From: Neobacillus sp. PS3-34
GTDB lineage: Bacteria; Bacillota; Bacilli; Bacillales; Cytobacillaceae
Direction: 5' to 3'
Length of the DNA stretch: 64,000 bases
Assembly (NCBI RefSeq): GCF_030915465.1
Contig: NZ_CP133267.1
Span: 620,001-684,000, forward strand
Every line of letters starts with the position of its first letter. The first letter of the stretch is position 1. The translations under genes were made by a program, and so were the position numbers. The notes under the pieces were generated by a model. It saw only the letters and a list, made by a program, of their open reading frames with translations, was not told the origin of the DNA and did not search any database. This document shows positions 35,273-56,170 of the stretch, in pieces.

Positions 35273-36516
35273 CTATTCCTTTTGGTCCCCAATAAATCCT
35301 GTGTGTTCGTTGTAATTGACTGTGATGGTTCCTACGGGTCCATTTCGATTCTTCGAGACAATCATTTCAAGGGAATGATTCTGTGAGTCCTTGTCATAAT
35401 AGGCTTCACGGTATAAGAATAAAATGACATCCGCATCCTGTTCCACACTGCCTGATTCCCGAATATCAGACATCATCGGCCGTTTATTGGCTCTTGATTC
35501 CACCGAGCGGTTGAGCTGTGCCAAACAAATGACAGGGCAATCAAAATCCTTTGCCATCGTTTTCAGTGATTTGGATATTTCCGTTACTTGCAAATGGGAA
35601 TTCCCGCCGTAAAATTGACTGGACTGTATCAGTGTCAAGTAATCAATAAAGAGGATTGGTTTCTTGTCAGGAAATTGATTCATCAGCTTCCTTGTTTTTG
35701 CTCTCATTTCGGCAATCGTTTGTCCCGCCCCATCAAAAATTTGCATATTGGTTTCAGCGAGATCACCAATCACATCCGACCATTTATTCTTTTGGTGTTG
35801 AGTAAGCATTCTTTTCGGATCCCGCATTTTTGCACGGTTAAAGCCTCCTGTCGAAGCAATTAATCGGGAGGTGATCAGCTTTTCAGGCATTTCTAAAGAG
35901 AATACAAGTGGCAGAAACCCCGCCCAACCAGCCATTTTGGCAAAATGAAGCATCACGTCGGTTTTTCCCATCGAGGCCTTGCCGCTACAATCGTCACTTC
36001 CCCTCCCTGAAAGCCTCCTGTCACTTCGTCAAGCTTTTGGATGCCGGTTGTCGCCGTTTTCAGGCATTTTTGCCCCTCCCATGGTGCCTCATAAATATCT
36101 GCCAGCGCTTGTTGTAACGATGTGTGATCCTCAAGCTTCAATTGGTTAATTTTATCCAATTCAGCAATGACTTTCGCAATTTCCCAATCATTCATGGCTG
36201 CAACGCTCAAGATGTTCCTTTTTTCGCGCTCCTTCCACAGTTCAAGAATGAGCTTCTCCGTTCCGGTAAATTTCTCAACATCCGCATACGATAACAGCTC
36301 CGAAAGATAGGACATTCCACCATATGATTCAAGGTCAGGTAAGGTTGTCAATGAGATCAAATCAATATCCCTGCCAGCCCGCTTGAACTCCACCATTTTT
36401 CTCATTAATTGTTGATGCCGTGTACTTTCAAGCTGTTCAGGCTGAACCACGGTATCCTTGAGTAAGTACTCCGCCTTCATCAAGCTTCCTAAGAACACTT
36501 TTTCAGCCATGCTCAT
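35273..36516 (-). CDS. DnaB-family replicative helicase (phage type), one frameshift in Walker A
   Basis: A hexameric 5'-3' helicase of 414 residues after joining. An N-terminal DnaB domain (MSMAEKVFLGSLMKAEYLL, YGGMSYLSELLSYA) is followed by the RecA-like motor with GGEVTIVAARPS-MGKT (Walker A), ILFIDYLTLIQS (Walker B), VICLAQLNRSVE and SGSVEQDADVILFL. The raw frame breaks right after the GGCC at 35975-35978, and one base restores RPSMGKTD. It overlaps the DnaD-like gene as ATGA. The small size and the context point to a prophage replication module, not the chromosomal dnaB. Confidence 0.85.
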
Positions 36517-37817: not shown

Positions 37818-37880
37818 TGGCGGGACCGCCTGGGAATCGAACTCACCTAACTTGGCACGCAGGTGACAAGCGGTTTTGAA
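37818..37880 (-). other. 3' half of a tRNA, possibly tRNA-Sec-like; candidate attachment site
   Basis: On the minus strand the fragment runs from CTTCAAAACC, which resembles an anticodon loop with TCA, through a long variable arm (TCACCT and AGGTGA pair), a T-arm (GTTCGATTCCC) and an acceptor 3' strand ending GGCGGTCCC-G-CCA. G before CCA, TCA and a long variable arm are features of selenocysteine tRNAs. No matching GGGACCGC 5' strand exists upstream, so the 5' half is missing. This is what an element integrated at a tRNA 3' end leaves at its far border. The T-stem has mismatches, so the exact identity is uncertain. Confidence 0.4.
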
Positions 37881-38653: not shown

Positions 38654-39261
38654 CTACAGTAGACCCTTTAACTTTTCTATTACTAGTTCAGTTACAAAAT
38701 TAATTGATTTTTCTGTATTTAAAACAAACCAATTTTGATCTAAAGCTACTTGATGAAATCTATTCGTAGATTCAACATGGTCCTGAAAGTTGTCTATAAC
38801 AAGACTTCGTAACCCATCAGAACGTGTTAACGCTCTTTGAAAAGAGATTTCTGGATCACATACAGTGGCAATAACAATATCAGGTTGAATAACATGATGT
38901 TCTAAATTTATTTTGAGACACTCTTCAAAAGAATGAAACAGACGGAATACTCCATCTGAAGGGTACCATCGGTCCATTAAAATTATATCAAAATTTGAAT
39001 TTTGAATGTACTTTTTTCCAATTTCGTAACGACCTTTTGCTAAAAGATGTAATAGCTTAACTTCTACATCTTTATTCAAGCTTTCTTTATGGTCTGTTAG
39101 AAGTTGCTTACTCTCATTACGATAAAGATCTAGTTCCTTTTCTACTAGTATTTTAACAGAGTAGTATTCTTTCAAATTTTCATAGACTGCCCGAATTATT
39201 GATGACTTGCCAGTTCCTTTTGGCCATCTAACGAAACGAATAATGTTTTTTTGGTACTCAT
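38654..39261 (-). CDS. Deoxynucleoside monophosphate (thymidylate-type) kinase, one frameshift
   Basis: A P-loop kinase of 202 residues after joining. The P-loop GPKGTGKSS lies at about residue 14, the lid/DR motif at ILMDRWYPSDGVF, and a purine-binding-type motif at CDPEISFQRALTRSDG. This pattern resembles thymidylate kinase and phage dNMP kinases. The raw frame breaks within the P-loop at the GGCC at 39222-39225, and one restored C fixes it. Its ATG overlaps the stop of the reductase gene by one base (TAATG), so both are made together. That suggests the kinase handles the reductase product. It is the last gene of the 51-38.6 kb operon. Confidence 0.7.
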
Positions 39262-40865
39262 TATTTTATTACCTCAATTGGTTGAGATTTTAGTGAGTTA
39301 TCTCGATAAATCATAAATCCAATTAATCCTTTTTCGTGGCCTAATTGAATCCATTGCTTAATTTCCTCAACATTTGTGCTAAACGAACAGTTAAGCGTCT
39401 TACTAATACCACCATCAATAGATTTCTGAAAAGCAGCCTGTACTTCGATATGTTCTTCTGGCTTTATATCTAAAGCTCTTGGGAACAGGTATGCAAGTTT
39501 TTCTCCTATCACATTGCTTAACTCTATACCTCCAAGAAGCAAATTTTTTACATCATCAGGATTAAGTCCTAACTTTTGTACAGTATATGCAAGAATCGGA
39601 TCTAAAATATAGATGGTATCATCCAATATATTCTGCTTTGTTAAATATCCATTGATTGGTTCAATTCCACTACTAGTATTAACAAGTAGTGAAAGTGTAG
39701 ACGTTTGTGCAATTGCAACTAAGAGCGCGTTTCTTTTCTTCTCCCTATTTATATTGTTAGACAGTGCAGCAGGATAAACACCTCTTTTATATGCAAGTCT
39801 TGTTGATTCTTCTTGTGCCCCTTGCATCAAAGCTTTCCCTATCTCTTCTGCTAGTCTAATTGATTCCTCAGAGCCATAACGAATACCTAATAATATTAAA
39901 AGGTGGGCATAGCCCATTAATCCTACTCCTATTTTTCTAGTGGACAGAGTATTTTTTTTAAGTTGAGGTGAGGAATGGTAATGAATATCATGCATTCCAT
40001 CGAGAAACCGAACTCCTATCCTTACTGTCTCTATAAATTTTTCAAAATCAAATGATAGATCTGTTTCATTGGACCTAATAAATTTTACAAGGTTAAGAGA
40101 ACCCAATAGCCCGGATTCGTCAGCAGCTAGAGGAGATTCCCCGCACACATTTGCGGCAATTGGTGCATTTTCTTCAAGTGCCACATTTGGGACCCTATCT
40201 GTAAAAAGAATAGCTGGTTGCCCTGTTCGATGAATCGATTCTGCCACCATATTAAATTTTTCTAAAGCTTCTGAATCGCTTCTCCTCACTTTTTCCATAA
40301 AAGAATCCGGAATCCCAACATTTAAATTAGTTACTTTCGTTTTCCCAGCTTGTTGTAAAATCCCAATAAAACCGGGATTATTAATCGATACGGTTACTGC
40401 ATTGGAAGCTGGACGAGGTCTCCCACTTTGGTGTTCCTCAGTATCCTTGTCAAATAGTTGGATAAAATTCTTAATTTCTCCCGGAGCCTTCAGGTGATTT
40501 AAGGTATATCCAACTCCCCCCATTCCATCATGTACTTGTCTCGCCACATTGAGGAATTCATTTATCGGCTTTCTTGCATCTAATGCAAAACAAGCAAAAA
40601 TTTTCTTTTTATCTTCCGATATATTTACCATTAATGGGCTATTGGGAAGAAACTCAGAATTTTCTAGTGTCTTTCTTAATTTTATAATATATTCATCTTT
40701 ATCACTTTCATCATATAGCATTTCTGCTTTCTCTGATGCATCTACAATTCTTCTTAATAGACCAGGCCAACCTTCATCTAAATGTCTATGTAAAATTCTT
40801 TTACTTAAAAGTGGGAAAAATGGGCTTTCATTTGGATCAGCTAAATTTCTTAAGTCTTCCATCAT
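39261..40865 (-). CDS. Ribonucleotide reductase large-subunit-like protein, class I/II fold
   Basis: A 534-residue protein with the reductase barrel. The order is FLPNSPLMVN, the first Cys in FACFALDA (about residue 92), GMGGVGYTLNHLKAPGEI, NLNVGIPDSFM, the active-site NVCGESPL (about residue 238) with the N-x-C-x-E pattern, GLLGSLNLVKFI, STRKIGVGLMGYAHLL, TSTLSLLVNTSSGIEP and SKTLNCS near the end. It lacks the C-terminal glycyl radical motif of class III enzymes and a C-terminal Cys tail. It is short compared with NrdA or NrdJ (700 or more residues), missing the N-terminal ATP cone. No NrdB is nearby, so a class II-like or novel radical source is possible. The neighbour upstream is an NrdG-like radical SAM protein, which is unexpected. 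Confidence 0.8.
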   Translation of the reverse strand: MMEDLRNLADPNESPFFPLLSKRILHRHLDEGWPGLLRRIVDASEKAEMLYDESDKDEYIIKLRKTLENSEFLPNSPLMVNISEDKKKIFACFALDARKPINEFLNVARQVHDGMGGVGYTLNHLKAPGEIKNFIQLFDKDTEEHQSGRPRPASNAVTVSINNPGFIGILQQAGKTKVTNLNVGIPDSFMEKVRRSDSEALEKFNMVAESIHRTGQPAILFTDRVPNVALEENAPIAANVCGESPLAADESGLLGSLNLVKFIRSNETDLSFDFEKFIETVRIGVRFLDGMHDIHYHSSPQLKKNTLSTRKIGVGLMGYAHLLILLGIRYGSEESIRLAEEIGKALMQGAQEESTRLAYKRGVYPAALSNNINREKKRNALLVAIAQTSTLSLLVNTSSGIEPINGYLTKQNILDDTIYILDPILAYTVQKLGLNPDDVKNLLLGGIELSNVIGEKLAYLFPRALDIKPEEHIEVQAAFQKSIDGGISKTLNCSFSTNVEEIKQWIQLGHEKGLIGFMIYRDNSLKSQPIEVIK

Positions 40866-40910
40866 ATTTTCCTTTCTGAAATAATATTTCTGTAAAAATT
40901 AACCAAACTT

Positions 40911-40938
40911 CACTAAAAATTATACACATTTTTTAGTG
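40911..40938 (-). promoter_or_regulatory. Palindrome overlapping a -10 element before the reductase gene
   Basis: CACTAAAAA and TTTTTAGTG form a perfect 9-bp inverted repeat. On the minus strand a TATAAT hexamer lies inside it (40919-40924). The 133-bp gap to the radical SAM gene is the largest within the operon. This looks like a secondary promoter with an operator, or an attenuator. Confidence 0.5.
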
Positions 40939-40998
40939 ATAATCGATGATAAAGCATTTAATGTTGTAGTGTTTTTGCTATAAATCTACTAAATATAC

Positions 40999-41580
40999 CT
41001 ATTCAATAGTAAAAGGCCACCCATTAATGTGGATTAAGTTATTCCCTTGGTCAATATTGAGCTCTAGTTTATTAGTGGAATCCTCATATTCTATTCCCTC
41101 GCGATATTGCTCCGTTAAATAGTGAAATTCTTGATTTGTCGAACCAACCCAATTTCGGTCTTCATCATATAATTCTTCGATAAAAGGACCGTCTACTAGA
41201 ATATCTATCTCCGCTAAAAACTCAGAACTAAACGGGAGTTGAATTTTCTTTAACTCTTTCACGGTGTAGCCGGAAAAAACCATAACGGTTATACCGATTT
41301 CTTTACACCTTCGCGAAAGGAAGGAAAGGCCGTTTGCTTGTAGAAACGGTTCTCCCCCCAAAAATGTAACTCCTTCAATTTCTTCTTCCCTTTTTGCTTT
41401 TTGAATCATTTCAAAAACTTCTTCACAATCATATATTTTTGCAGGTTTTACTTCTAACATTTGGGGATTGCAACAACCTGGGCATCTTTTGAGACAGCCT
41501 TGAACCCATAATGCAAAACGCTTCCCTGGTCCTTCCGCCTCGGTACAATCATTATAATGTGCAACATTTAAATACGGCAT
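40999..41580 (-). CDS. NrdG-like radical SAM enzyme
   Basis: A 193-residue protein with the CxxxCxxC iron-sulfur motif at Cys29, Cys33 and Cys36 (GCLKRCPGC), the SAM-binding VTFLGGEPF (GGEP motif) and the NrdG-type ending with VDGPFIEELYD and WVGSTNQEFHYLT. Its size and layout are those of activases for anaerobic reductase NrdD. No NrdD-type glycyl radical protein is encoded here: the next gene is a class I/II-type reductase. It starts two bases after the AAA+ gene stop, with GAGGA inside that gene's end. It could activate the reductase, another protein of the operon, or act on a nucleotide. Confidence 0.85.
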   Translation of the reverse strand: MPYLNVAHYNDCTEAEGPGKRFALWVQGCLKRCPGCCNPQMLEVKPAKIYDCEEVFEMIQKAKREEEIEGVTFLGGEPFLQANGLSFLSRRCKEIGITVMVFSGYTVKELKKIQLPFSSEFLAEIDILVDGPFIEELYDEDRNWVGSTNQEFHYLTEQYREGIEYEDSTNKLELNIDQGNNLIHINGWPFTIE

Positions 41581-41582
41581 CT

Positions 41583-43442
41583 TTAGTCATCCTCTAATTC
41601 AAAATCGTAATATGCTGTATTACCGGCTTGAATCACTTTAATCTTTTTCCCTGGAGCGAAGTAATCACTTTCCTGGAAGATGAACCTGGCTAACGGGTCT
41701 ACTAATTTGGGCTCAATGACATTTAAGACGCCGCGTCCACCGTTAGAAATATCCACCTGTGCTACTATAGCTGCCAGTGCCTTATCCTCATCTTCAAATA
41801 TGAATTCCATTTGATATTTCTCTGCAATAAATGTTTTTATCGGTTTTATTTTAATTTTGGCAATATCGATTAAGAACTTTCGATCATTAATATGATCAAA
41901 AACAACTATATTATCACCGATACGGTTTAAAAGCTCCGGCCGATTCAATTTGGTTAAAAAGTGATCCTGTAGTTCGCTTCGAATAATTTTGTTATTCTCT
42001 TCAGAACTGTTATTTACATCAACCTTCGATGCCCCAATATTGGATGTAAAGATAATAATTGATTCTGAGAAATAAACCGTTTCCCCTTTACCATCGGTTA
42101 AGCGTCCATCCTCTAATACCTGCAGAAATTTATCCAGTATTCTTTGATGTGCTTTTTCGATTTCATCAAAAAGCAGAACAGAAAACGGCTTTTCACGGAT
42201 AGCATTCGTTAATTGACCGCCTTCTTCATAACCCGTATAACCTGGCGGTGCCCCGATTAAACGTTGATCGCTATGTTCATGGTTAAACTCTGACATATCA
42301 AACCGTATGCACGCATTTTCATCACCGAACAAAAATTCAGCCAATGCTTTTGCTAATTCCGTTTTTCCTACACCCGTAGGTCCAACAAAAAAGAGTATTC
42401 CTTTTGGCTTGCTTTGTTTAGCCGAATGCTGGAGTCCTGAAAAACCGGTATAGGCACGAATAATAACATCTTCTACTTTCGAAATGGCATTATCTTGACC
42501 GCGAACACGCTCTTTCAAAGTTTCTTGAATTCTTATTAACTTTTGCTTAGATAATTCTTCCCAAGGGCTCGACTTCTTTCCATACTTGTATACATTGACA
42601 AGCTTTTCGAATGTTAGATTATCTTGACTTAATTGTCTTGATAACTTAATCAATTGATAAATATCCCTCAGCGAAAAACCATCCAATAGATCAATGAAAT
42701 CTGAAAAGTTTACATCATTATAATGACGGAGATTCCTGGTTTCGAGCTTGCTAAAATGATCCATTACGTATTGCTGGCGTTCAGAGCGGCTGGGAAAAGG
42801 AATTTGTATTTGCTTAACTGACGAATTTTGTTGATAATAGCTTGGTGGTATTGCACCTAGTTTTTCAGTTAAAAAAATGACAATATTAGACTGCTCCGAA
42901 ATAGTCGAATCTAACCGTAAAGGAGACTGCCGGATTGACTTCCCTAAAATGGTCAAATATTCCCGTTCTATTTCACTTAAAGCGTTGGCGTTGCCAAATA
43001 AGTAGTTTGACCAGTCAATGACAAATGCCACTTTACGATTGGTGTCACGACGCATTGATTCGTAAACTAGAGAGAAAAATTCTATCGGATCACGATAATC
43101 ATTTTGCTTATTAGACAAAATCGATGTGTCAATGTTTTCATCTGTAAGATAGTCATCTTCATCGGATTCAGAACCATCATTGTACAATTGTTCCAAATCT
43201 GAAATAGAGGATTCCTTAACCCGGGAATAATCAATCCCATGAACCCGGTCCCAATAAACAACATCTTGAAAACCTTTTTTAAGTAAACTTTCATTTAAAA
43301 CATTTGGGAAAAAATCGTACTTATTAGAATATGGATTAAAGCAAAGGTCACTTATATTACCATACATGATTAACGATTTCCGAATTCCTACTTCTCTTAA
43401 AATAGATTCAAACCATGTGCTCGATTTTGTTACGGTGATCAT
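41583..43442 (-). CDS. Clp/ClpB-type AAA+ ATPase with degenerate N-terminal ATPase-like region
   Basis: A 619-residue protein. The C-terminal half is a canonical ClpA/B D2-type AAA+ module: GQDNAISKVEDVI, Walker A FFVGPTGVGKTELAKAL (about residue 356), the pore-loop region GAPPGYTGYEEGGQL, Walker B LLFDEIEKAH, sensor FTSNIGAS, arginine finger LLNRIGDN and a D2-small domain (GGRGVLNVIE). The N-terminal 300 residues lack a Walker A, but show AFVIDWSNYLF and NIVIFLTEKLG at places where Walker B and sensor 1 of an AAA domain would lie, then a lid-like helical part. There is no Clp N domain and no ClpP loop that I can see. The start overlaps the coiled-coil gene as ATGA. Confidence 0.85.
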   Translation of the reverse strand: MITVTKSSTWFESILREVGIRKSLIMYGNISDLCFNPYSNKYDFFPNVLNESLLKKGFQDVVYWDRVHGIDYSRVKESSISDLEQLYNDGSESDEDDYLTDENIDTSILSNKQNDYRDPIEFFSLVYESMRRDTNRKVAFVIDWSNYLFGNANALSEIEREYLTILGKSIRQSPLRLDSTISEQSNIVIFLTEKLGAIPPSYYQQNSSVKQIQIPFPSRSERQQYVMDHFSKLETRNLRHYNDVNFSDFIDLLDGFSLRDIYQLIKLSRQLSQDNLTFEKLVNVYKYGKKSSPWEELSKQKLIRIQETLKERVRGQDNAISKVEDVIIRAYTGFSGLQHSAKQSKPKGILFFVGPTGVGKTELAKALAEFLFGDENACIRFDMSEFNHEHSDQRLIGAPPGYTGYEEGGQLTNAIREKPFSVLLFDEIEKAHQRILDKFLQVLEDGRLTDGKGETVYFSESIIIFTSNIGASKVDVNNSSEENNKIIRSELQDHFLTKLNRPELLNRIGDNIVVFDHINDRKFLIDIAKIKIKPIKTFIAEKYQMEFIFEDEDKALAAIVAQVDISNGGRGVLNVIEPKLVDPLARFIFQESDYFAPGKKIKVIQAGNTAYYDFELEDD

Positions 43443-44602
43443 CGGTTTCTCCTTTCAACACTCGCAGGAGTATCAATAGGTTTACTGTTTTTGGAAATAC
43501 GCTCTGGGTTTTCCCAAATAACTCTTTCATCTGTTAATTTAATACCATATATTTCGGTAAGCTTATCTTTAAACAACTGTTCATCTTCTCTGCAAGCCTG
43601 ACCCTCATAATGGTCGAATTTATACATAAAGTCACCAGTTAGATTTACCTTACAAAGCGCCTGTTTTCCCGATGGCTTACGGGCAAGGATTTTAACGACA
43701 TCTTCATTGTTTTCAGTACTCCTTGACACTTTCCCTTGGATCACGAAGCCTTGTTCTTGTAAGGATTTTACAATCATTTTGACTGTTTCCTTACGGATTC
43801 GTTCATCCATTACCTTATTTTCTGCATTTTCTATAGCTTCCTGAATAAGCTCACTTACATCTTCTAAATTCACAGCCGAGCCGCTCTGAATTTGCTGCTT
43901 TGTTTTCTGGAGACTGTCCAAAATGGCTTGTATCTCTGCTTCACTTTCTTTTTTATCGGCGGAGATTAGCTCTATGTTTGTTTCCAATTTAGAAAGCTGA
44001 ATCTCTTGGGCAGCTTCTGTTTTTTTCCGTTCTTTCCATTCATTTGCTTTTTGTTCAGCTTTTACACAAATCTCACTGACCCTTTTATCGATTTTTTGCT
44101 TGATTGAATGAATCGATTGGGCTGACTTCTCAGTTTCGATTTCCTTCTTTAATACCTGCAGATCTTCAAAGGCAAAGTCCTGAATGACAGGATCAGAAAT
44201 CCGACCTACAACATCGTAATAGTATTTAGTAGTTTCTTGCTCTAACTTAGCCATTTCTTCTTTCATTTGCTGCATGCGAAGTCGTTGCTTTGAAACCATT
44301 TCTTGTTCAGCTGCTCTTGCCAACGGACGAACCGAATTGATGAACTCCCCCAATTCAAAGCTGGACCCTCTGGCAGCTTCAGGGTTAGCATCAAGATTTC
44401 TTTCTATTTCTGATAAATATCCTTTTACTTTCTGAAGCTCACTAGGTACTAAATCTTGAAATCCATCCAATACCATTTGATTGTACATATTTTGATATTT
44501 TTCATAGAAACGAACCGTTGTTTCTCGTACTCTTGTTAAATGCATTTGTCTTCTTCTTGCCGCTTCTATTTCGTATCGAGTGACGGAAGCCCTACTCATC
44601 AT
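43439..44602 (-). CDS. Coiled-coil protein of the helicase/reductase operon, 387 residues
   Basis: Not recognised as a known family. Residues 1-310 are almost entirely charged helix with heptad-like Leu/Ile spacing (KLETNIELISADKKESEAEI). The last 90 residues form a mixed alpha/beta domain (VIQGKVSRSTENNEDVVKILARKPSG and a Cys-containing strand), possibly a small binding module. There is no membrane segment. GGGGG precedes the ATG pair at 44602. It is coupled by ATGA overlap to the AAA+ ATPase, which suggests an adaptor or structural partner of that machine. Confidence 0.7.
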   Translation of the reverse strand: MMSRASVTRYEIEAARRRQMHLTRVRETTVRFYEKYQNMYNQMVLDGFQDLVPSELQKVKGYLSEIERNLDANPEAARGSSFELGEFINSVRPLARAAEQEMVSKQRLRMQQMKEEMAKLEQETTKYYYDVVGRISDPVIQDFAFEDLQVLKKEIETEKSAQSIHSIKQKIDKRVSEICVKAEQKANEWKERKKTEAAQEIQLSKLETNIELISADKKESEAEIQAILDSLQKTKQQIQSGSAVNLEDVSELIQEAIENAENKVMDERIRKETVKMIVKSLQEQGFVIQGKVSRSTENNEDVVKILARKPSGKQALCKVNLTGDFMYKFDHYEGQACREDEQLFKDKLTEIYGIKLTDERVIWENPERISKNSKPIDTPASVERRNR

Positions 44603-44624
44603 TAAACCCCCAATTTATCAATAA

Positions 44625-47117
44625 TTACTTTTTCTTTCCTTTTTTATTTTTACTATTCTTGTTTTTCTTTTTACTTCCAAGATCTGCTGGTTCAACTGCT
44701 TTTATTCCAAACTCACCTGCACTAGCCTTTAAATCGATATTTGACGTAATAATGGCAGGCTTCTTAGCTTTATACTTTAAAGCAACTGATAACAGCTGAT
44801 TATCAAGTGTTAATGAATATGATTTAGGTAATGTTTCATGACTATAATCCTCAAAGTGTAGATTTTCTCTCGTACGTTCTTTTAAGGATAAGACTAATTC
44901 ATCAATTTTCGATGATAGATTTGGATTTTCCTTCGCAGCAAACGACAATGACTTATACACATCTTTCTCATGAGAAGAACATATGATAACATAATCATTT
45001 TTCAAAGAAAGGGATTCCATAATAGTGGGTTTCGTTAAGAATAGACTCGTATCCAGCACATATACATTTTCATACCCGCTCGGTATTTCTTGATTAAATA
45101 AATCAAGAAATGCCTTATAGTTTAAAATATTTTCATGAATCTGTCCAAAAGATGATTTTGTAATAATTTCACTATTTACAATAAATTGTGTCAGTTTATT
45201 TACCAGGTCGTTCCAGCGTACACAATCATTTAATATTTGTTGAAATTCCACCTTTTCAAGAGTTTCGTAGTATTTTCTACTATCGAACTTTTTCTGAAGT
45301 GATTCGACCTTCAATTGTTCTTTTATCTTTTTGTGATATTTATTTATTTCACGAACCGTGATTTCAAACTCATTTCGATCATATAAATGCTCTTTTATCC
45401 ATTTTAAATCATCAAAATTATACAGCACTTCCTCTATCAGTTCATCTGAATAAATATCACTTGATAAAGCCAGCTTTTTAACGGACTGTTCTATTTTTAG
45501 CTTCGACAACTCCTCATTTAGATTTTTTAATTCAGAGAAGTTATGAATATGCCCATAGAAATGCAGCAGCTTTTCGGTTACCTCCATACTTAGCTCTTTA
45601 TTTTTCTGCAAATCTAGAATATTGATTAAATCCTCAAGCTCTTCCATGCTTGAAGCGTTTTGAACGGCTTGTACACCTAATTCATTTCTGAACTTATCCC
45701 ACTGAATATGGTTAACGGCATTAGCAGGATAGAATTCCTTCATCCATTTTTGAACATCTTTTAGTCTGCTAAGCTTTTCTTTGAGAGACATACTTTTGTT
45801 ACTGTGGATATATTCATTGATGTTTTTCCACTGCTGGTCTGCACTTAACCAAAATGCCGATATCCATAATGCGTCTAAATCATCTTGGTATTCCATGATT
45901 TCAGCTTCAATAGATTTGTATAGATCGTCTAAAATAATTTCTTCTTTCTTTAATCTATAGCGGATAGGTACTTCATTCTTAACTCCATTTACATGAACAA
46001 TGGTTTTGGCTGCCATCACACTATCACGGAAACCATTTACATAAAGGCCGTTTTCAAAAATAAATGAATTTGGAATCCGAACGAATGCCCCCGTTTTCTT
46101 TTCGTTCCAATTAAGTTCAAAGTTTTCTAAGTCATCAAAAGCAATTATAAGTGTGTTTTTGGGTATATGTTTGCTATTTTCTGAAAGCCTTTCGAAATTG
46201 CCCTTTCGTGGAAAATAATCAAATAAATATGATTGATTAATGATGTGAATCGTATTCGTAAGTTTTTTGTCAATATCATGTGCATCTTTTTTAAGTGAAT
46301 CCTCATCTAATAAAGAAAGATCACTGGCCTTTGATTGAATCATTCTTAACTCTGAAAAATTTAAATCTTCTAAATCAATGTGATCAAAACTTAGACTTTC
46401 AAATAGAGACTCTACTATTTCTGATTCAAAATCTTTTAGTTTATCCCTATACTCTTTGTTATCACATTCAATAAATGCACTTTGGTTATTTGAAATTTCA
46501 AGTTTAACCTTTATGTTTTTCCACATAAAATCGCTATTCAGTCTAGAAACATCTGAAATTTCAGTGTTTTCTTTATACCAATCGTATCTGGAACTGGTTT
46601 CCTCAATATCCTGGCTGATAAAACCGTGAGGATAAAAATCTAGATCAATAGAATCAAGATTAATTGTTTGAACATTCGTTTCCTTTTTAGCCCAACGAGA
46701 TTCGGAATCATCAAGAAACCGATTTGCTATGTAATCAAAATAATGGGAAACAGAATCTGATCTTGGGTTGCTTGGAATGACTCTTCTTTTTTGTACAGTT
46801 GAACCAAGCTGTGAAATAGTTAAGTTTTTTAAAGTAATGTCCTCTAATGAGGATAAAGCTGTATCACATTGAATGATTTGCAAATCAATAAGCTTTTCCA
46901 ACACTGGTTTGACTAGTTTGGTAGAATCAGGAACAGATAAAATATTTTCAAATATCGTCTTTAATGAAATTTGATTGTACATTTTATCAGATTGAAATCT
47001 GCCTATTAATTCTAAGAGCATCCACTCGACCGCAGTTATTTTTCGAGGTGTGGCATGAGTTACCTGGCTGTCAATTTTAATTATAGGTACTGCTACTTCT
47101 GCTTCTTTTAATAACAT
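44625..47117 (-). CDS. 830-residue protein with a C-terminal PIN-like domain and Lys-rich tail
   Basis: The N-terminal 150 residues look like a winged-helix module (ITAVEWMLLELIGRFQ and SVPDSTKLVKPVLEKL). The middle is helical with a beta segment (FVRIPNSFIFENGLYVNG). From about residue 685 there is a PIN-like nuclease fold: NVYVLDTSLFL (first Asp), a central helix region, TLDNQLLSVALKYKAKKPAIIT (second Asp) and KASAGEFGIKAVEP. The final 20 residues are almost only Lys, Asn and Ser, suiting nucleic acid binding. PIN domains are metal-dependent RNases; catalysis here is inferred. AAGGAG precedes the ATG. The gene follows the helicase by 80 bp and the coiled-coil gene by 22 bp. Confidence 0.7.
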   Translation of the reverse strand: MLLKEAEVAVPIIKIDSQVTHATPRKITAVEWMLLELIGRFQSDKMYNQISLKTIFENILSVPDSTKLVKPVLEKLIDLQIIQCDTALSSLEDITLKNLTISQLGSTVQKRRVIPSNPRSDSVSHYFDYIANRFLDDSESRWAKKETNVQTINLDSIDLDFYPHGFISQDIEETSSRYDWYKENTEISDVSRLNSDFMWKNIKVKLEISNNQSAFIECDNKEYRDKLKDFESEIVESLFESLSFDHIDLEDLNFSELRMIQSKASDLSLLDEDSLKKDAHDIDKKLTNTIHIINQSYLFDYFPRKGNFERLSENSKHIPKNTLIIAFDDLENFELNWNEKKTGAFVRIPNSFIFENGLYVNGFRDSVMAAKTIVHVNGVKNEVPIRYRLKKEEIILDDLYKSIEAEIMEYQDDLDALWISAFWLSADQQWKNINEYIHSNKSMSLKEKLSRLKDVQKWMKEFYPANAVNHIQWDKFRNELGVQAVQNASSMEELEDLINILDLQKNKELSMEVTEKLLHFYGHIHNFSELKNLNEELSKLKIEQSVKKLALSSDIYSDELIEEVLYNFDDLKWIKEHLYDRNEFEITVREINKYHKKIKEQLKVESLQKKFDSRKYYETLEKVEFQQILNDCVRWNDLVNKLTQFIVNSEIITKSSFGQIHENILNYKAFLDLFNQEIPSGYENVYVLDTSLFLTKPTIMESLSLKNDYVIICSSHEKDVYKSLSFAAKENPNLSSKIDELVLSLKERTRENLHFEDYSHETLPKSYSLTLDNQLLSVALKYKAKKPAIITSNIDLKASAGEFGIKAVEPADLGSKKKNKNSKNKKGKKK

Positions 47118-47197
47118 AAAGAACTCTCCTTAATAACATAGTCTGTCTGGGAGTCATATCAAAGACGTACTTCCTGTTAAACTCCCAGCAGTCCTCT

Positions 47198-50100
47198 TTA
47201 GTTGGATATAGTTTGAAGTTTCTTCTCCTTATCCGCTTGTTTTGTCATTAATTGATGATATTGTTCAGGTGTAATAACCCGCCGCGACTCCCAAAGGCAT
47301 CCTTTAAGCTGAAGCCGGTCCATAATGTCACGGTATACCCTTTTCGTTGTTGACCCCGTATTATCCATATTTGGAAGTTCAACATCATAATCATAGAACA
47401 TGTCTTTTGCCCCTAAAACAACTAACAATTCCTTCGCACGTGAGAAGGCAACATTTATTCGCTCAAAGGCAGCAACAAATGAGTTTTGGGATTTTTTCCT
47501 TACGTTTTTATTACGGACAAGACTAACAAGAATAATTGACTTTTCTTTCCCTTGGAATTTATCAACCGTATTTATATCTACGTTAATCGATTCAAATTTA
47601 ATGTTTCTTATACGCCTTCTAATTTCACCAACTTGTTTACCATAAAAGCTGATAACCCCAACATCCTTTTTGCCTTTAACACCTGCTTTTGTATACTGCT
47701 CATCAATTTTCTTTAACGTTTCCGCTATTAATATACTTTCAAGTGTATTAATTTTCGATGTCCCCATCTGCTCTTCGAAATTTTGTTCACCAAAAGGATT
47801 TTTAGATGTATCAATCCAAATGGCATGACGGTCTGGAGTGATAAACTCTAAGCCTTCAGGAGATGTTATCGTCAGACCATGATTTCGAACCTCATCAGGG
47901 TTTGTTATACCGCACTTCAATCTATTTTCATAAAATTGGTTAATAACATCCATGATGTCCGGATGCATACGGTATTGGGTTAATAAAGCCTCTTTAATCG
48001 TTGGATCAGCTTGTTCAAAATAATCTTTAAAAAGGGAAGCCGTTACCATGGATTTAAAACGGTCAAAATTCTCTACATTCAGTAATTTGTCATCAAATGT
48101 TTGTTCTTCCGGCGGTAATTCATCTTGTTCCTCTTTTAACTGTTTAATTAGTTCTTCATAGGATGATTCTTGTTCTTTGAAGATTGGCGGCAACTGACGA
48201 TGGTCTCCTACCAGGATTGTCTTCTTAGCACGAATCATTGGCATTAATAGCTCTGGCGGAGTTGCCTTACTAACCTCATCAATAATGGCGATATCAAAGA
48301 TTGTATGATTATTTTCCTCAAGAACACGTGCATTTTCGGTACAAGTAACACCCACAACATTACATGCATCTAAATAAATTTCTAAATAATATTCATAATC
48401 ATTTTTTGCGGTTTTTTCGTTTTCAAGCATCGAAGTCCATTCTTCAAAAAGGGGTTTCCAATCATCCTCAAATTTCTTGTCTGCTTGTGAAATGTTGTTT
48501 AATGCACTAATAATGGCATTAGCTGCATCAACTGCCTCTTCATCAGAAAAATCATCATCCGAATGTTTTCTCATATCGTTGTATAGGGAAGACAACAATT
48601 TTTGTTTCTCATTGTATCTTTCGTATAGACCCTTGAGTTCTAATTGATGACGTGACAATTCCGCTTGTAACTTCTTGTATTTTGACTCATCAACTGCTGC
48701 TTCAGAGATGGATTTATAATACTTGTCCATTTCACTAAATAATGGCTGCATTGATTCATTTATGATTTGTTCCAGCTTGATTATATCTTGGTATATATAC
48801 AGCAGCTCTTCCGATAGTTCAGTTTTATCAGCTTCCAATTTACTTTTTAAAATGTCGCTATATTTCTCCCCATTTATCATGCCGTTGAAAATGGTTGAAT
48901 ACCCTTCATCTAAAACGGCTGTACGATTGTTTTTAAGCTCCTTTATTTCATTTCGAATCTTTCTCCATATCGTAAATTTTGAAGCATCCTCTTCCATCTC
49001 AACTTCAATTTCTTTGATTTTCTGTTCCAGTTCCTGAATTTCATACATGGTACTAACATCTAGCCCACCAGAAGCTTGTCTAAAGGACAGAATGTCCTGT
49101 TCTAACTTGGGAAGAAATTTCTTTAAGTTGCCCCATTTATTCCAGAATAATTTAAACGCTTTCGTTTTTTCGCTGTCTGACAGTCTATCGTCATTTTTTA
49201 ACCAAAATTCATCTAAAATAATATGGTGCTTTTCAAGTGTCTTAGCAGGCTCTAAGAAATTTTGGAAAATGAAATTCAGTAAATACGCCGGAATATTAAA
49301 ATTTGTTTCATTCGAATGATTTATGTAATCCTTAAGCTTAATAATATTTTCCTTAGTCTCCATATTTACTCTGGCTTGTTCACGGATTTTATTGATATAT
49401 TGCTCTTCCTGCTTTAATTGGAAGTTTGTCTGTTGGACCAGCTGCTGAAACTGGAGTATCGTATCCGCATATCGACTAAGGTCAGCCTTTACAAACTTAG
49501 TATCATCCATTAAATGTTGTAATTCTTCTAGTTTGTGATCCCGATCCGTCCATCGTTTAATAAACTTTTCTCGAATACCACTAGAAATAGAGGAGTAGAA
49601 CCACTTTAAGACTTGCTTCTCAGAGAATTGCTTTCCTTCTTCTGAAAGCTTCCGTTCTTTCCCTAGTCTAATCGCTCGAATTTCTGGACTATTAGCTAAT
49701 CTTTCAAAAACATTATCAACGGCTAAATTAGCCTGTGAGGCAAGAATTACCTTTTTGCCCTGTTTGGTAAATTGATAAATGGCCTCAGCAATAACGGTTG
49801 TCTTCCCCGTCCCTGGTGGCCTTGAAGCAGAAATACATCAGGTGAATTGATCATTTTTTCTACAGCTAACTGTTGATCTTGATTCAAGTCATCCCTATTT
49901 AATTTTTCAATAGGTTGAGACAATTTCGTCTTATTTGCTTTCGAAATATCAAATAACCATGAAGAGAGAAAAGGTGCATACCCGGACTCAAGCTGAAGAT
50001 GGTCCAGAACTTGCTTTTGCCGTCTGATGAGGGCAAACTCTCCGGCAGATGATTCAGATAGGAAGCCGTTTTTCGGATATTCATTTAATATTTCACCATA

Positions 50101-51042
50101 TAGAAAATAAACATCTTCTCCATTAGCATTAATTACATCGTTTTGGTCTTCATCAGTAAGTTTAAAGACTACTTTTGCCAGCACTGGTGATTCCCATCCG
50201 CAATTTAAATCCTCTAACATATCCTGAATCTTAAAATAAGAACTGTTTTTAACTTCAATGATTTCTTTAATATCCACGAAATCGCCTATATCAGTTCCTC
50301 TTATGAATTTACTTTCATTGAGCCGAAATTCCCACTCATGCTTTGAATATTCAATAGGGTAGGCCATTATGTGTCCTCGTCTTAGAAACCTTCTGTATCT
50401 GCCCACCTGTCCACGGTTTTCAAATATTGCGCGAAAGATTAGATTCCCATCCTCAATATCAACATCTAAATACTTAACGCCGTCTTGTTTATTACGGACA
50501 ATTTGTTTATTCCATTCTAAATACTCATTCCATAGCTTAAGTTTACTTGATGTTTCTTTAGAAATTTCAGGAAGGGATACTATGAATTCTGTAGTAAATA
50601 CATTATTTTCTCTTTGGATCTGGTAAACATTTTTTTGCTCTGAAAAGGTGCGGACTACTATTTCCTGCTCAAAATCACGTTGTTCAGAATCACTGATTTC
50701 CGTTACACGATCAATGATCAACACCGGATTAACAGGCGGAGAAAAATGTCCACGAATGGCAATAGAAAGACCTTTTGGAAAAACACTTTCCAAAAGTGGA
50801 CCATCTATTTTAGGACGAATGGTCAGATCTAAATATTGATCTTTCAATGAAGTGTTTGATACATAGAAGGACCTAGTAAATCCTTCAGGGAAAACCTTTT
50901 TAAGTAAATAGGATATATAATCCTCCCCATCAATATAATCTTTAAAAAAGTCAGGATAGGAATCTTTCATTTTAATAAGGGCTCTTTTAAGATTGCCTTC
51001 ATTTTTCCTAAAATCCAAGTACATGTTTTTAACTTCTATCAT
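47198..51042 (-). CDS. Upf1/DNA2-type SF1 helicase with long coiled-coil insertion, one frameshift
   Basis: The joined protein is 1281 residues. Residues 1-390 form an accessory N-terminal region. Walker A FLLQGPPGTGKT lies at about 405, motif II as IAIIDEVSKATP at about 917, GDHRQLPPI at 949, motif V VDKFQGKEKSIILVSLVR at about 1160 and motif VI AFSRAKELLVVLGA at about 1204. About 400 residues of coiled coil sit between Walker A and motif II, where other Upf1-like helicases have a short stalk. The raw frame breaks in Walker A at the GGCC at 49818-49821, and one G restores QGPPGTGKTT. I start at the ATG at 51042 with AGGGG seven bases upstream. It is the first gene of the operon. Confidence 0.85.
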
Positions 51043-51089
51043 TTTCGCACCCCTTACGTTTTCTCCCAATGTATATCAATATTGGACTT

Positions 51090-51317: not shown

Positions 51318-52424
51318 TTATAAATTTGAATATGCTTTGGCCGCCATCAAGTTACGGAAATATGAACCAATTTCTTTCTTATCTTTATTAAAGAGTATAT
51401 TAATTGCATTAAAATATCGTTTCTCTTCTTCCCCTGAATAAGAAAATCCAATTAACGTCCCATAAATATCTGCATCACTAGTTTTCCCAAATGATGTTAA
51501 AAGTGTAAAAAACTTTTGATGAGCATGCTTGTTTAGTTTAGTACCAACAGGGTCGTTAAAAATTTTGCTAGATTTGGCTTTTTTAGCTGCACTTTCTTCT
51601 TTAACGTTTCTTTCTACAGGAGCTTGATTGACTGGGCCGACATCCTTGAAGTCTATTTTCACGGCATGAATTTCAGTCTCCTCTCTGTTTAATACTTTAA
51701 TTTTATTTACCTCTTTTAAATAAGAAATTAAATTCAATACTTGCCTGTCTTTCTCGATACGCTCCTTGGATTTTACAATCTCTTTCAACCCTGTTAGCAA
51801 ACTACTAACTAGTTTTTTCTTCCTTTCGTCATTTAGATGACCCGTGTTAGAGCGATTACTTATCGGTTTAATTATACCTGTACTAGATACCCTAACTGAA
51901 ACCTGATCTACTTCTGTTCTGGTACCTGCCTGGGAGTTTGAACTAGTTTTTGCCGGTATACTTGAAGTTGACCTTGTACTTGCCATAGTATTAATCACCG
52001 AAGGTGTTCTTGAACTTGCCGTTGTACTACTTGGGGATGTGCTTATTAATTTTCCTATACTGGTATTAGAATTTGATCTCGGGGTTGTATATGTCCCCGT
52101 AATTGTACTTGTACCTCTATTTACACTGGATCTTATACTTTCGATTGTACTTGTACCTGTATTTACACTTGACCTTGTTCTAGTACTTACATTTGTATTT
52201 GTATTTGTATTTTTACTCACGCTTGTATTTGCAGTTGTACCTGTATTTGGTTTGATGTCTATTACATTTGGTCTTGAGCCAATACTTGCATTTGTACTTT
52301 CCCTACTTACTGTGTTTATATTTGTTCTTGTGCCTGTACTGGTATTTGAACTAGAGTTAGAACTTGAACTGGAACCGCTGAAGAAAAACCATATAATAAT
52401 TATGATAATAATAAAAATAATCAT
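51318..52424 (-). CDS. Membrane-anchored Ser/Thr/Asn-rich protein with helical C-terminal domain
   Basis: Not recognised. A strongly hydrophobic start (IIFIIIIIIIWFFF) serves as membrane anchor. Residues 17-200 are low-complexity Ser, Thr and Asn with scattered Arg and Val, like a stalk or linker. The last 165 residues are charged and helical (DERKKKLVSSLLTGLKEIVKSKERI, and SFGKTSDADIYGTLIGFSYSGEEE). AAAGGA precedes the ATG. It is upstream of the helicase operon on the same strand with a 275-bp gap. The orientation of the stalk, inside or outside, cannot be fixed. It may be a surface or sensing component, but this is speculation. Confidence 0.6.
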   Translation of the reverse strand: MIIFIIIIIIIWFFFSGSSSSSNSSSNTSTGTRTNINTVSRESTNASIGSRPNVIDIKPNTGTTANTSVSKNTNTNTNVSTRTRSSVNTGTSTIESIRSSVNRGTSTITGTYTTPRSNSNTSIGKLISTSPSSTTASSRTPSVINTMASTRSTSSIPAKTSSNSQAGTRTEVDQVSVRVSSTGIIKPISNRSNTGHLNDERKKKLVSSLLTGLKEIVKSKERIEKDRQVLNLISYLKEVNKIKVLNREETEIHAVKIDFKDVGPVNQAPVERNVKEESAAKKAKSSKIFNDPVGTKLNKHAHQKFFTLLTSFGKTSDADIYGTLIGFSYSGEEEKRYFNAINILFNKDKKEIGSYFRNLMAAKAYSNL

Positions 52425-53383: not shown

Positions 53384-54295
53384 ATGCCAATACGCAGCAA
53401 AAGTATAAATTTATACTTGATGGATGGCACTCCAAACGGACGTATCAAATGTACTCTTGCCAACTGGACAGGAGTAGCTTACAAAATTCCCCGCACAGAC
53501 CTAGATAAATGTAAAGGACGAAACGATTTATCACAGAGCGGTGTATATTTTCTTTTTGGTACGTCTGATGAAACTGGAGGAAATGTCGTCTATATCGGTC
53601 AGGCTGGGGTGAGAAAAAATGGAGAAGGAATTCTTTACCGCCTACATGAACATAAACGCAATCCAGATAAAGATTATTGGACAGAAGCAGTAGCTTTTAC
53701 AACCTCAAATAACTTTTTCGGTCCTACTGAAATAAGTTATCTTGAGAACCGTTTCTGTGCCATGGCTATGGATGCTAGGCGATACATTGTCAAGAACGGA
53801 AATGACCCAACATCAGGAAACATAACGGAGGAAAAAGAAAGTGAACTTGAGGAATTCATCGATTATGCGAAACTCGTTATGGGTACACTCGGGCATAAAA
53901 TTTTTGAAAAACTAACTGTGATAAAAAATCAAAGCGAAATTCTAAATACCTTTAGCAATGATGAGTTGTTACTGTACTTGAAGCGTAAGAGTAGAAAAAG
54001 TGGAATCACTATTGACGCTAAATGCAAACAAACAACCGAAGGATTCGTAGTGCTCACAGGCAGCCACATTGAAACTATCGATTCTGATAGCATACCACCA
54101 GGAATCAAAGAAAGCCGTCAAAAAGCACAAATCGATGAAAACGGAATATTGCAGGAAGATGTTCTTTTCCGCAGTCCCTCATATGCAGCTGCATTTGTTG
54201 TTGGTGGTCATGCAAACGGTTTAACTGAATGGAAAACTAAAGATGGAAAAACATTAAAAGAGATAGAGCATGATGATGAAATCAAAGGAATATAG
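53384..54295 (+). CDS. GIY-YIG nuclease family protein with C-terminal DUF4357
   Basis: A 303-residue protein. The GIY-YIG core is seen as SGVYFLFG (about residue 53) and VVYIGQAG (about 68), followed by ILYRLHEHKRN with the conserved Arg, and a Glu in PTEISYLENRF. The C-terminal DUF4357 module contains FRSPSYAAAFVVGGHANG and TEWKTKDGKTLKEI. This two-part architecture is common in restriction and mobile-element neighbourhoods, where such nucleases cut foreign DNA. Catalysis here is inferred. AAGGAGGTG lies seven bases before the ATG. It is the only plus-strand gene in this part apart from 58452 and is followed by its own terminator. Confidence 0.88.
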   Translation: MPIRSKSINLYLMDGTPNGRIKCTLANWTGVAYKIPRTDLDKCKGRNDLSQSGVYFLFGTSDETGGNVVYIGQAGVRKNGEGILYRLHEHKRNPDKDYWTEAVAFTTSNNFFGPTEISYLENRFCAMAMDARRYIVKNGNDPTSGNITEEKESELEEFIDYAKLVMGTLGHKIFEKLTVIKNQSEILNTFSNDELLLYLKRKSRKSGITIDAKCKQTTEGFVVLTGSHIETIDSDSIPPGIKESRQKAQIDENGILQEDVLFRSPSYAAAFVVGGHANGLTEWKTKDGKTLKEIEHDDEIKGI

Positions 54296-54630: not shown

Positions 54631-56170
54631 CACTAGCGTTGCACTAAAATTAGTGAAAAAAGTCAATAGGGGAAAAAGTTCCAATTACTGTCGATTTCTG
54701 ATAAAACTTAATATTCAGTTAACTCAAAACGAGGAAAAAAAAAATGGATAATGTGCCATCTAGTGAAGGTGTCTTTTATCCATTTTTTTACATAATCAAA
54801 ATTAAAATGTATAGATATCTAATTCCCCTCGTTCAACTTGTTCCATCGTTTCTTGAAATATTCGTTCGTGTTCGTTTCTTTTTCTTCCCTTTGTTGTTCT
54901 TTCCGGAGGTGTGAATATTTCTTTCAAGAAGCAGGAATAGCTTTTTAAACTGTAAGAAACTATATACTTTTTTAGGCTCAGTAAGGAGGCCATATATTTT
55001 AAGTTTCTTTTCATCAATAGTGTTAAGCAGAAGGCAATCATAGCCAGATAGATTTGATTATGTACGGCATTCTCACTTTTCCCATAAATCTTTTTCAGAA
55101 CCGTATGCTGTTTCATCCATTTAAAAAACAATTCAATTTTCCAACGGTTTCGGTATAGGGTACTTACTTCCACTGCGGTAAGTTTGGCGTCATTCACAAT
55201 AATTTCAATTCGCTTTCCCTCACTGTCGATCGTCTAGATTAAACGTAGGGGGTGTTTCATTTTCCCTAAAAAGACTACCGCTTCTCGCTGAATCGGAGAA
55301 TTTTTGGGAACAGGAACCTCCTCTACCACCTTTATGACGGTATTCTCTTTAATTCGCGTGACAAAACGGATTCCTTTCACACAGTAGTCTTCAAATTTTT
55401 TAAAATCGAAATAACCACGGTCAAACACATGCAGCGCACCGATTTCATTGACCATAAGAGAATCAAGTTGTGAAAGGTCAGATGGTCGTGCTGGCGTAAT
55501 CATGATTTTATCGGGATATGTTTCCCCATCATGATAGACCACTCGTGTATGCATCTTGATGCCTGATGTATAGCTGTTTTTAGGAGCCCACGGGTACTGG
55601 TTGAGGCAAAGAGTAAGAGTCGATGAATCAATGAGATGAAGCTTATCCAGCATCTTATTTGCTTCTTTTGAACCAAAGGTTTGACGAATCTTTTGAATAA
55701 GATGGTTTAGGGCTGCCTGCAAAATGGCAGGTGGAATGTCCCTCAGTTTCCTCGATAATTGTGAGGTACTGATTGTTTTTAAATCCAACTCTTTTTGTAA
55801 AGAGGGATTATGCCTAAGTTCAAAACTTATATTAGTCAGACTGGAAGTCTGTTGAATTTGCGCGTAAATAAAAAGCTTCACAAATGTTAAAGTATCCAGC
55901 TTTTTTACATATTTATCTAGACCTAGATGAGCTGGCCATTTTAGATAATATATCTCCATCCATTGGATGAAGGTATTTCTTAAATACGGTTTTTGTGCTA
56001 TTCTTGTCCATGGGATCTCCTTATAATTAGGATTTGGACAGGACTTAAACCTTCCATCTAATTATAAGGATTTTTTTATGTCCAAAGAAGACTATGATAT
56101 CCCTAAAATGGAAAATGATTGATAATATTTTTTCTTGACGATTCCAATTTAATTTAATGCAACGCTAGTG
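54631..56170. mobile_element. IS4-family insertion sequence, 1.54 kb
   Basis: The ends are inverted: CACTAGCGTTGCACTAAAATT at the left and its near reverse complement at the right (AATTTAATGCAACGCTAGTG). The pairing extends outward over TTAT/ATAA, so the exact border and target duplication are unclear in this AT-rich target. A single transposase gene on the minus strand fills the element, followed by an internal hairpin (AAATGGATA and TATCCATTT near 54740-54789). Confidence 0.85.
54802..55959 (-). pseudogene. IS4-family transposase interrupted by an in-frame TAG
   Basis: The protein is 385 codons long. The first part contains the N-terminal domain and the DDE residues in LHLIDSSTLTL and ALHVFDRGYFDF. 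The second contains the IS4 signature YRNRWKIELFFKWMK with the catalytic Glu in the Y-x2-R-x3-E-x6-K pattern. Both parts are in the same frame, separated only by a TAG at 55234 in the sequence RLI-TIDSEGK, where Gln (CAG) is the likely ancestral codon. There is no GGCC here. Unless the TAG is suppressed, the element is inactive by itself. Confidence 0.85.

Follow-up and report, generated by a model that had tools for sequence, protein, structure and literature searches.

A mobile five-gene cassette with a UPF1-type helicase and an SMG6-like PIN domain in Neobacillus sp. PS3-34, a likely bacterial defence system

The pairing of a UPF1 helicase with an SMG6-type nuclease forms the core of nonsense-mediated decay in eukaryotes. 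Among bacterial systems, Mokosh type I, as characterised here by its PADLOC models and a single fetched locus (L075; loci of this study carry L numbers), consists of a UPF1-like helicase, MkoA, and its partner MkoB; in the fetched locus, a PLDc_2 domain was found at 288–392 of MkoB and a Pkinase match (6.6e-5, below the cut-off) in MkoA. Here, a 64,000-nt stretch of the Neobacillus sp. PS3-34 genome (assembly GCF_030915465.1, contig NZ_CP133267.1, positions 620,001 to 684,000) was analysed; the whole stretch is called the window, and coordinates are positions in it unless given as genome positions. A minus-strand gene run at 38654..51042 contains a helicase of the UPF1 type followed by a protein with an SMG6-like PIN domain. 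Five genes of this run form a cassette that is real, conserved and mobile, is likely a defence system and is unnamed in the libraries searched.

The conserved unit consists of five genes, not seven, in the order helicase, PIN protein (gene 2), coiled-coil protein, Clp-type AAA+ protein and radical S-adenosylmethionine (SAM) protein. Plasmid relatives were collected by tblastn with the AAA+ protein, which gave five cassettes (Acinetobacter, Photobacterium, Polaromonas, Moellerella and Leisingera), and genome relatives by scanning GTDB genomes with the coiled-coil alignment, which gave 19 loci (four Treponema, Fibrobacter, Ruminococcus, two Acinetobacter, ten other beta- or gammaproteobacteria and one Lentisphaerae metagenome-assembled genome). 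Profiles for all seven genes were run over these 24 loci. The five-gene order on a single strand was found in 24/24 relatives, with all five genes present in 23; in the exception, L022, the contig begins within gene 2, so that the helicase is cut off and the last four genes remain. In the relatives, neighbouring cassette genes frequently overlap by 4 bp or are separated by short gaps. The reductase and kinase profiles matched in none of the 24 relatives within the fetched DNA. An earlier reading of the window, made from the sequence only, had described a seven-gene operon, had named conserved gene order as its check and had held that homologues scattered without a conserved neighbourhood would refute it. 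The same order in distant genomes upholds the operon for five genes, whereas the refutation succeeds for the reductase and the kinase. The claim that the set corresponds to no named system stands as well, with the PADLOC 2023 and NCBIfam June 2026 models, none of which names the gene set, giving part-length matches only; this statement covers those libraries and not the published literature. Among 72,556 plasmid records, the coiled-coil protein and the N-terminal region of the AAA+ protein match the same ten, six of them from Moellerella (one of the six was read), and the coiled-coil family in plasmids was found solely inside the cassette.

The cassette is patchy in its distribution, plasmid-borne and horizontally transferred, between orders according to the trees, in line with the mobility that had been proposed for it. 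In a set of 101 genomes, consisting of 100 relatives and the genome of the window itself, its coiled-coil gene could be detected in the latter alone. Seven of the ten cassette-bearing plasmid records were typed as conjugative. The main groups of the AAA+ and coiled-coil trees agree, and in both trees the Moellerella plasmid copy has a short branch and sits among those of Comamonadaceae, Oxalobacteraceae and other groups. A long branch leads to the window copy, which clusters with those of Fibrobacter, Ruminococcus and Treponema and is placed less securely; the Lentisphaerae copy, which is close to betaproteobacterial ones, may be mis-binned. A phylum sample of 299 gave one other coiled-coil match, a weak one (7.7e-4, L034), which was rejected as a further cassette with no match to any cassette profile at 1e-4. 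A phage origin was likewise rejected: the coiled-coil protein (E 0.01) and gene 2 (1e-5), the two of the five genes searched there, were unmatched in 50,697 phage records. Relatives of the radical SAM protein occur in five viral contigs, one of them at a contig end, and the other cassette genes were unmatched in the available DNA of these contigs.

Family assignments in the window were made by Pfam, NCBIfam and PADLOC profile searches (Table 1). The predicted open reading frames (ORFs), together with Pfam and NCBIfam, bear out the minus-strand run, the family calls and the spacings of the earlier reading, which are, from the helicase onwards, 80 bp, 22 bp, an ATGA overlap, 2 bp, 133 bp between the radical SAM gene and the reductase, and a TAATG overlap between the reductase and the kinase. 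Two of its details needed correction. The candidate promoter at 51.1 kb was not recovered, none of 44 promoter-like sites lying there on the minus strand (62.5 sites expected in shuffles), and the helicase is not a single open frame in the assembly but two ORFs, split by a frameshift in Walker A.

Table 1. Features of the gene run in the window
Feature	Coordinates	Strand	Evidence and remarks
UPF1/IGHMBP2-type superfamily 1 (SF1) helicase	47198..51042	-	two ORFs, 49747-51069 and 47198-49510; AAA_11, AAA_12; MkoA 1.7e-80
Gene 2, MkoB-like N-terminal domain and C-terminal SMG6-like PIN domain	44625..47117	-	PIN_4 2e-6; MkoB match over 7-233
Coiled-coil protein with small conserved C-terminal domain	43439..44602	-	invariant Y332, G334 and C337 (alignment of 20; model)
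Clp-type AAA+ protein, second ring active, first ring without Walker A	41583..43442	-	similarity to ClpC/ClpB second ring; motif patterns
Small radical SAM protein of NrdG/pyruvate formate-lyase (PFL) activase type	40999..41580	-	NrdG 1.9e-29, below cut-off; PFL activase; CxxxCxxC
Perfect inverted repeat (10+10 nt) outside the cassette, a candidate operator for the reductase and kinase	40910..40939		within the 133 bp gap between the radical SAM gene and the reductase
B12-class reductase-like gene, neighbouring cargo outside the cassette	39261..40865	-	NrdJ models below cut-off
Thymidylate-kinase-like gene	38654..39262	-	Thymidylate_kin 3e-8; listed ORF from 39175, P-loop in another frame

A PIN fold with an acidic active site was found in gene 2. 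Of the solved PIN domains, those of SMG6 and Nmd4 come nearest to it, whether judged by sequence or by VIA Z. The four Treponema copies are PIN-less and have an AbiD-type HEPN gene close by. In the N-terminal part, MkoB matches 4 of 19 gene-2 proteins at 0.01 (best 6.9e-6), the window match is colinear, and hhalign of the gene-2 against the MkoB N-domains gave a probability of 67%, with six controls at 0.2% or less. The N-terminal part of MkoB matched five places in 274 genomes of one class, all of which were fetched; the matching gene follows a UPF1-like helicase in L071, L072, L073 and L075, the last being the MkoA/MkoB pair introduced above, and L074 has no such helicase. L071 and L072 represent a different type of operon and contain a protein kinase, a UPF1-like helicase and a matching protein of 710–713 aa without a Pfam match, followed by uncharacterised genes. 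Gene 2 and MkoB probably share a helicase-partner domain, joined in gene 2 to a PIN instead of a PLD domain.

The second ring of the AAA+ protein had its best match to ClpC (E 3.6e-81). Its Walker A (GPTGVGKT) and the motif [IL]LFDEI are kept in 24/24 relatives and in the window, and this is the sole Walker A pattern of the protein in all of them; the first ring gave a weak match to VCP/paraplegin. A Clp N-domain was not matched by Pfam in the window protein, and no conserved IGF/L-type loop was found by pattern in the AAA+ proteins. The radical SAM protein carries CxxxCxxC in 24/24 relatives and in the window and matched the structure of the PFL activase at 9e-13. Viperin identity of this core gene was rejected, the pVip matches being weak and covering part of the model only. 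A pairing as NrdG and reductase was also rejected: the adjacent reductase is of the B12 class (NrdJ-like), which requires no activase, and stands beside none of the 24 relatives. For the C-terminal domain of the coiled-coil protein, Foldseek gave no better fold match than E 0.22 (RnlA), and VIA gave the spermine synthase N-domain (10.2) and KA1 (8.2) with many unrelated folds behind. DUF2997 produced three sub-threshold partial matches to Acinetobacter copies of this domain, which are taken as a lead only.

A second radical SAM gene could be found near 10 of the 24 cassettes (L006, L007 with two, L017, L020, L022, L024, L025, L026, L031 and L033), at a distance of 3.2 kb in L024, and L021 has a fragment of one. 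Six of the 11 genes were counted through BLAST to a Pfam-scanned one together with the CxxxCxxC pattern. They lie on either strand and fall into at least three groups unlinked by BLAST at 1e-4. The 15 non-Treponema genomes among the 19 hosts contain 266 PF04055 matches in approximately 63.4 Mb, so that approximately 0.4 radical SAM genes would be expected in the approximately 105 kb of flanks of those 15 loci, and 8 were observed; because the cassettes are related, the 15 loci do not count as independent trials. The pattern used found no second radical SAM gene in the four Treponema loci. Behind the Acinetobacter plasmid cassette (L006:14712-16691), a VakA-like thymidylate-kinase-like gene, a radical SAM protein with a partial pVip match and a 162-aa protein were observed.

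Defence-type genes near the cassette, in support of the earlier reading, were found both in the window and in the flanks of the relatives. Upstream of the cassette, the window contains PDC-S14 (53384-54295) and PDC-S68 (59713-63372). The flanks hold 157 ORFs of at least 130 aa; the neighbour scan comprised the 101 of them from the 19 genome loci, and four of the 56 from plasmid loci were scanned separately. At 1e-10 in PADLOC and among the 25 of 54 families listed, AbiD was matched by at least four of the 101 ORFs, pVip by at least four and CARF/Csx1 by at least three, and single matches were obtained to type I restriction, BrxL, DrmD, PDC-S01 and PDC-S14; these are raw counts without a matched control. 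The flanking pVip-matching proteins are better taken as radical SAM proteins rather than pVip because the match, in those checked, covers part of the model. Transposase, integrase and resolvase genes were identified among the flanking ORFs by Pfam. The cassette is thus located on mobile elements and beside defence-type neighbours, the latter counted without a matched control, as a defence system would be. In L015, L016, L027 and L028, the flanks contain an AbiD-type gene and a family of 245–315-aa proteins in all four; a 205–212-aa family in L016, L027 and L028 may be the CARF/Csx1-type match.

Further features surround the window copy. Directly upstream, a low-complexity Ser/Thr/Asn-rich protein with a hydrophobic start is encoded at 51318-52424 on the minus strand, with no family above cut-off, and an insertion sequence transposase with an in-frame stop codon lies at 54802-55959. 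A degraded copy of a tRNA 3' end is present near the cassette at 37818-37842, and further copies occur at genome positions 702,344 (outside a called tRNA) and 711,214 (within an ARAGORN-called tRNA-SeC); the window copy may indicate where an island ends. To the right of the window, the defence island appears to extend further because L057 (genome 683,500-700,500) holds a split UvrD-like helicase, a PLD/SNF2-type helicase and an N6-methylase-like gene, all named from their translations by reading.

Taken together, we consider it moderately probable (approximately 0.6) that the cassette is a mobile five-gene defence system acting by the helicase-nuclease, AAA+ and radical SAM mechanism proposed here; its anti-phage function is suggested by its position and its families. 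Beside the observed gene set, fixed order, mobility and nearby defence genes, we infer a mechanism and a role for the radical enzyme. The UPF1-like SF1 helicase would load on foreign nucleic acid, RNA of a phage or plasmid being the most likely, and move along it, while the gene-2 protein would dock on it through the MkoB-like N-terminal domain and cleave the strand with the SMG6-like PIN domain at its C-terminus; the cassette probably cuts invader nucleic acid, and probably RNA. In the PIN-less lineage, the neighbouring AbiD-type HEPN protein could take over the cutting role. The coiled-coil protein may serve as an adaptor and is a likely substrate of the hexameric Clp-type AAA+ motor, which, with a dead first and an active second ring, would assemble, reset or dismantle the helicase-nuclease complex. 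The radical SAM protein may modify a partner protein, for which the invariant Y-x-G-x-x-C patch of the coiled-coil protein is the most likely site; such a modification may license the complex or sense its state. A bolder version of this proposal, which we regard as rather improbable, takes the bacterial UPF1-SMG6 counterpart as an immune effector under radical control: the activase-type enzyme would place a radical, or a modification made by radical chemistry, on the coiled-coil protein at the invariant Gly and Cys of its C-terminal domain, the Clp motor would read this mark to assemble or release the helicase-nuclease, and the second radical SAM enzymes would be accessory modifiers of the same partner.

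Several points weigh against this reading of the five genes. For gene 2, Foldseek places an unassigned PIN domain from Thermus first and SMG6 shortly after it, and the loss of PIN is confined to one clade of four Treponema copies and represents a single event. Similarity to the MkoB N-terminal domain is weak: hhalign of the whole alignments gave 33%, and a reverse search with the gene-2 N-domain profile found no MkoB at E 0.01. The substrate of the radical SAM protein is a guess, and the sequence does not tell an RNA from a DNA target. The neighbour scan covered 101 of 157 flanking ORFs and 25 of 54 families without a matched control. The helicase reads as broken in this genome, and the copy would be dead if the frameshift were real.

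The families would also fit a host operon for stress or quality control, RNA decay being represented by SMG6 and Nmd4 and protein remodelling by ClpB/ClpC, in which the helicase and PIN protein would remove stalled mRNA, the Clp motor would rescue proteins and there would be no role against phages. Presence in a single one of 101 related genomes, plasmid carriage, transfer between orders and the defence-type genes nearby make such a housekeeping function unlikely. It is less likely that the defence cassette is directed at the DNA of an invader, such as single strands in replication or transfer, instead of at RNA. SF1 helicases of the UPF1-like group and PIN/FEN-like nucleases can act on DNA, and restriction genes occur in the flanks; however, the closest solved PIN domains are RNA-decay ones, and the PIN-less copies have as their neighbouring partner an Abi_2 HEPN-type protein, of a class whose members are known to be RNases. 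That all seven genes form one functional unit, in which the reductase and kinase would provide the cassette with nucleotides or poison them, appears very improbable, although they share the strand, are set apart by 133 bp only, overlap one another and have an apparent parallel in the thymidylate-kinase-like, VakA-like gene behind the L006 cassette. Neither gene accompanies any relative, the perfect inverted repeat stands inside the 133 bp gap, and the L006 kinase has no BLAST match to the window kinase at 1e-4. The coupling to nucleotide conversion proposed in the sequence-only reading is likewise not supported, and the pair is best read as separate cargo outside the cassette. The reductase-like protein (534 aa) keeps N-x-C-G-E and has Gly in place of the Cys of the T. 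maritima motif E-A-C-N-L-G-S, this Cys being one of the reducing pair in the B12 reductase. Searches of plasmids, phages and relatives found no close relative of it, the best identities being 31.5% in plasmids, 30.5% in phages among the matches listed and approximately 30% in relatives over most of the protein. Its gene is translationally coupled to the kinase-like one, and the two could be a non-canonical nucleotide-modifying pair.

The assembly itself and the in-frame stop of the neighbouring transposase would agree with a genuine helicase frameshift and a decaying remnant in the window; we regard this as doubtful. Both helicase pieces match the helicase profile of the relatives, and the remaining four cassette genes are open. 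GPPGTGKT is intact in 23/23 relatives with a helicase gene, and the frame being open there in all of them, a programmed frameshift was rejected. The helicase break (49747-49837) is at GGCC; the DnaB gene (35273-36516) is broken alike at GGCC, and by sequence reading the kinase P-loop break (39180-39262), just before the listed kinase ORF, is at GGCC too and is too close to the gene start for detection in the tetranucleotide break scan. In that scan of the window, frameshift-like breaks were more frequent at GGCC than at any other of the 256 tetranucleotides (11/164 sites, two of the 11 at the same helicase break, vs 1575/127,994 overall); GGCC also came first in 33 kb elsewhere in the genome (2/66, small numbers), and ranked 54th and 220th in two sets of control loci. 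The sole PF00145 methylase match of the genome is HaeIII-like (4e-61 vs 2e-23 for the next non-HaeIII enzyme), an enzyme whose site is GGCC. Systematic base-calling error at methylated GGCC is the likelier cause of the frameshifts because the excess of GGCC breaks is seen in this genome and not in the controls and because of the HaeIII-like methylase. Depletion of GGCCC (26 vs 34.5 expected) was not decisive as proof of such error. Assemblies of GGCC-methylating bacteria may carry false frameshifts in P-loop genes.

If the five-gene cassette protects against phages, it would tie the UPF1-helicase/SMG6-type nuclease pair to bacterial immunity and would represent a defence system whose conserved core includes an activase-type radical SAM enzyme. 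Its sensing, cutting and regulating parts can be approached through the copies that lost PIN next to a HEPN-type gene and through the second radical SAM genes acquired repeatedly.

The cassette and its parts were compared with described proteins and systems. The AAA+ protein shares with ClpB, ClpC and ClpA the second ring with Walker A and B, which places it with the Clp/Hsp100 proteins, and differs from ClpB/ClpC, which have two ATP-binding rings and an N-domain, in that a first-ring Walker A pattern and an N-domain match are absent. The radical SAM protein resembles NrdG and the PFL activase in its model and structure matches and in the CxxxCxxC kept in all copies; however, it reached 102.6 bits against the NrdG cut-off of 126.1, and the cassette has no glycyl-radical enzyme. 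Plasmid loci of Rhizobium, Caballeronia and Aristaeella (L011, L012, L035 and L036) likewise carry AAA+ and radical SAM genes near a giant SF1-type helicase, but have no match to the coiled-coil or gene-2 profile, and the Aristaeella locus has additional kinase, FHA and phosphatase genes. The AAA+/radical SAM pair may be a core common to several systems because these four loci pair both with a giant helicase without the coiled-coil protein and gene 2. With Mokosh type I, the cassette shares a UPF1-like (COG1112-type) SF1 helicase, matched by MkoA in the window; the N-terminus of the gene that follows it is weakly similar to that of MkoB. In contrast to it, Pkinase was not found in the N-terminal piece of the window helicase at 0.1 nor in L018, the sole relative scanned, at 0.01; the window gene 2 has PIN_4 and no PLD at 0.1, whereas the fetched MkoB has PLDc_2; and the cassette has three extra conserved genes. 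Because the kinase and PLD were not found, it is not classed as Mokosh type I, and the best reading of these sequence comparisons is a distant relationship to that system. The eukaryotic decay pair is matched by a UPF1-family helicase and an SMG6/Nmd4-like PIN domain, here set in a bacterial, mobile, five-gene cassette with a Clp-type AAA+ and a radical SAM protein; the parts are alike, not the pathway.

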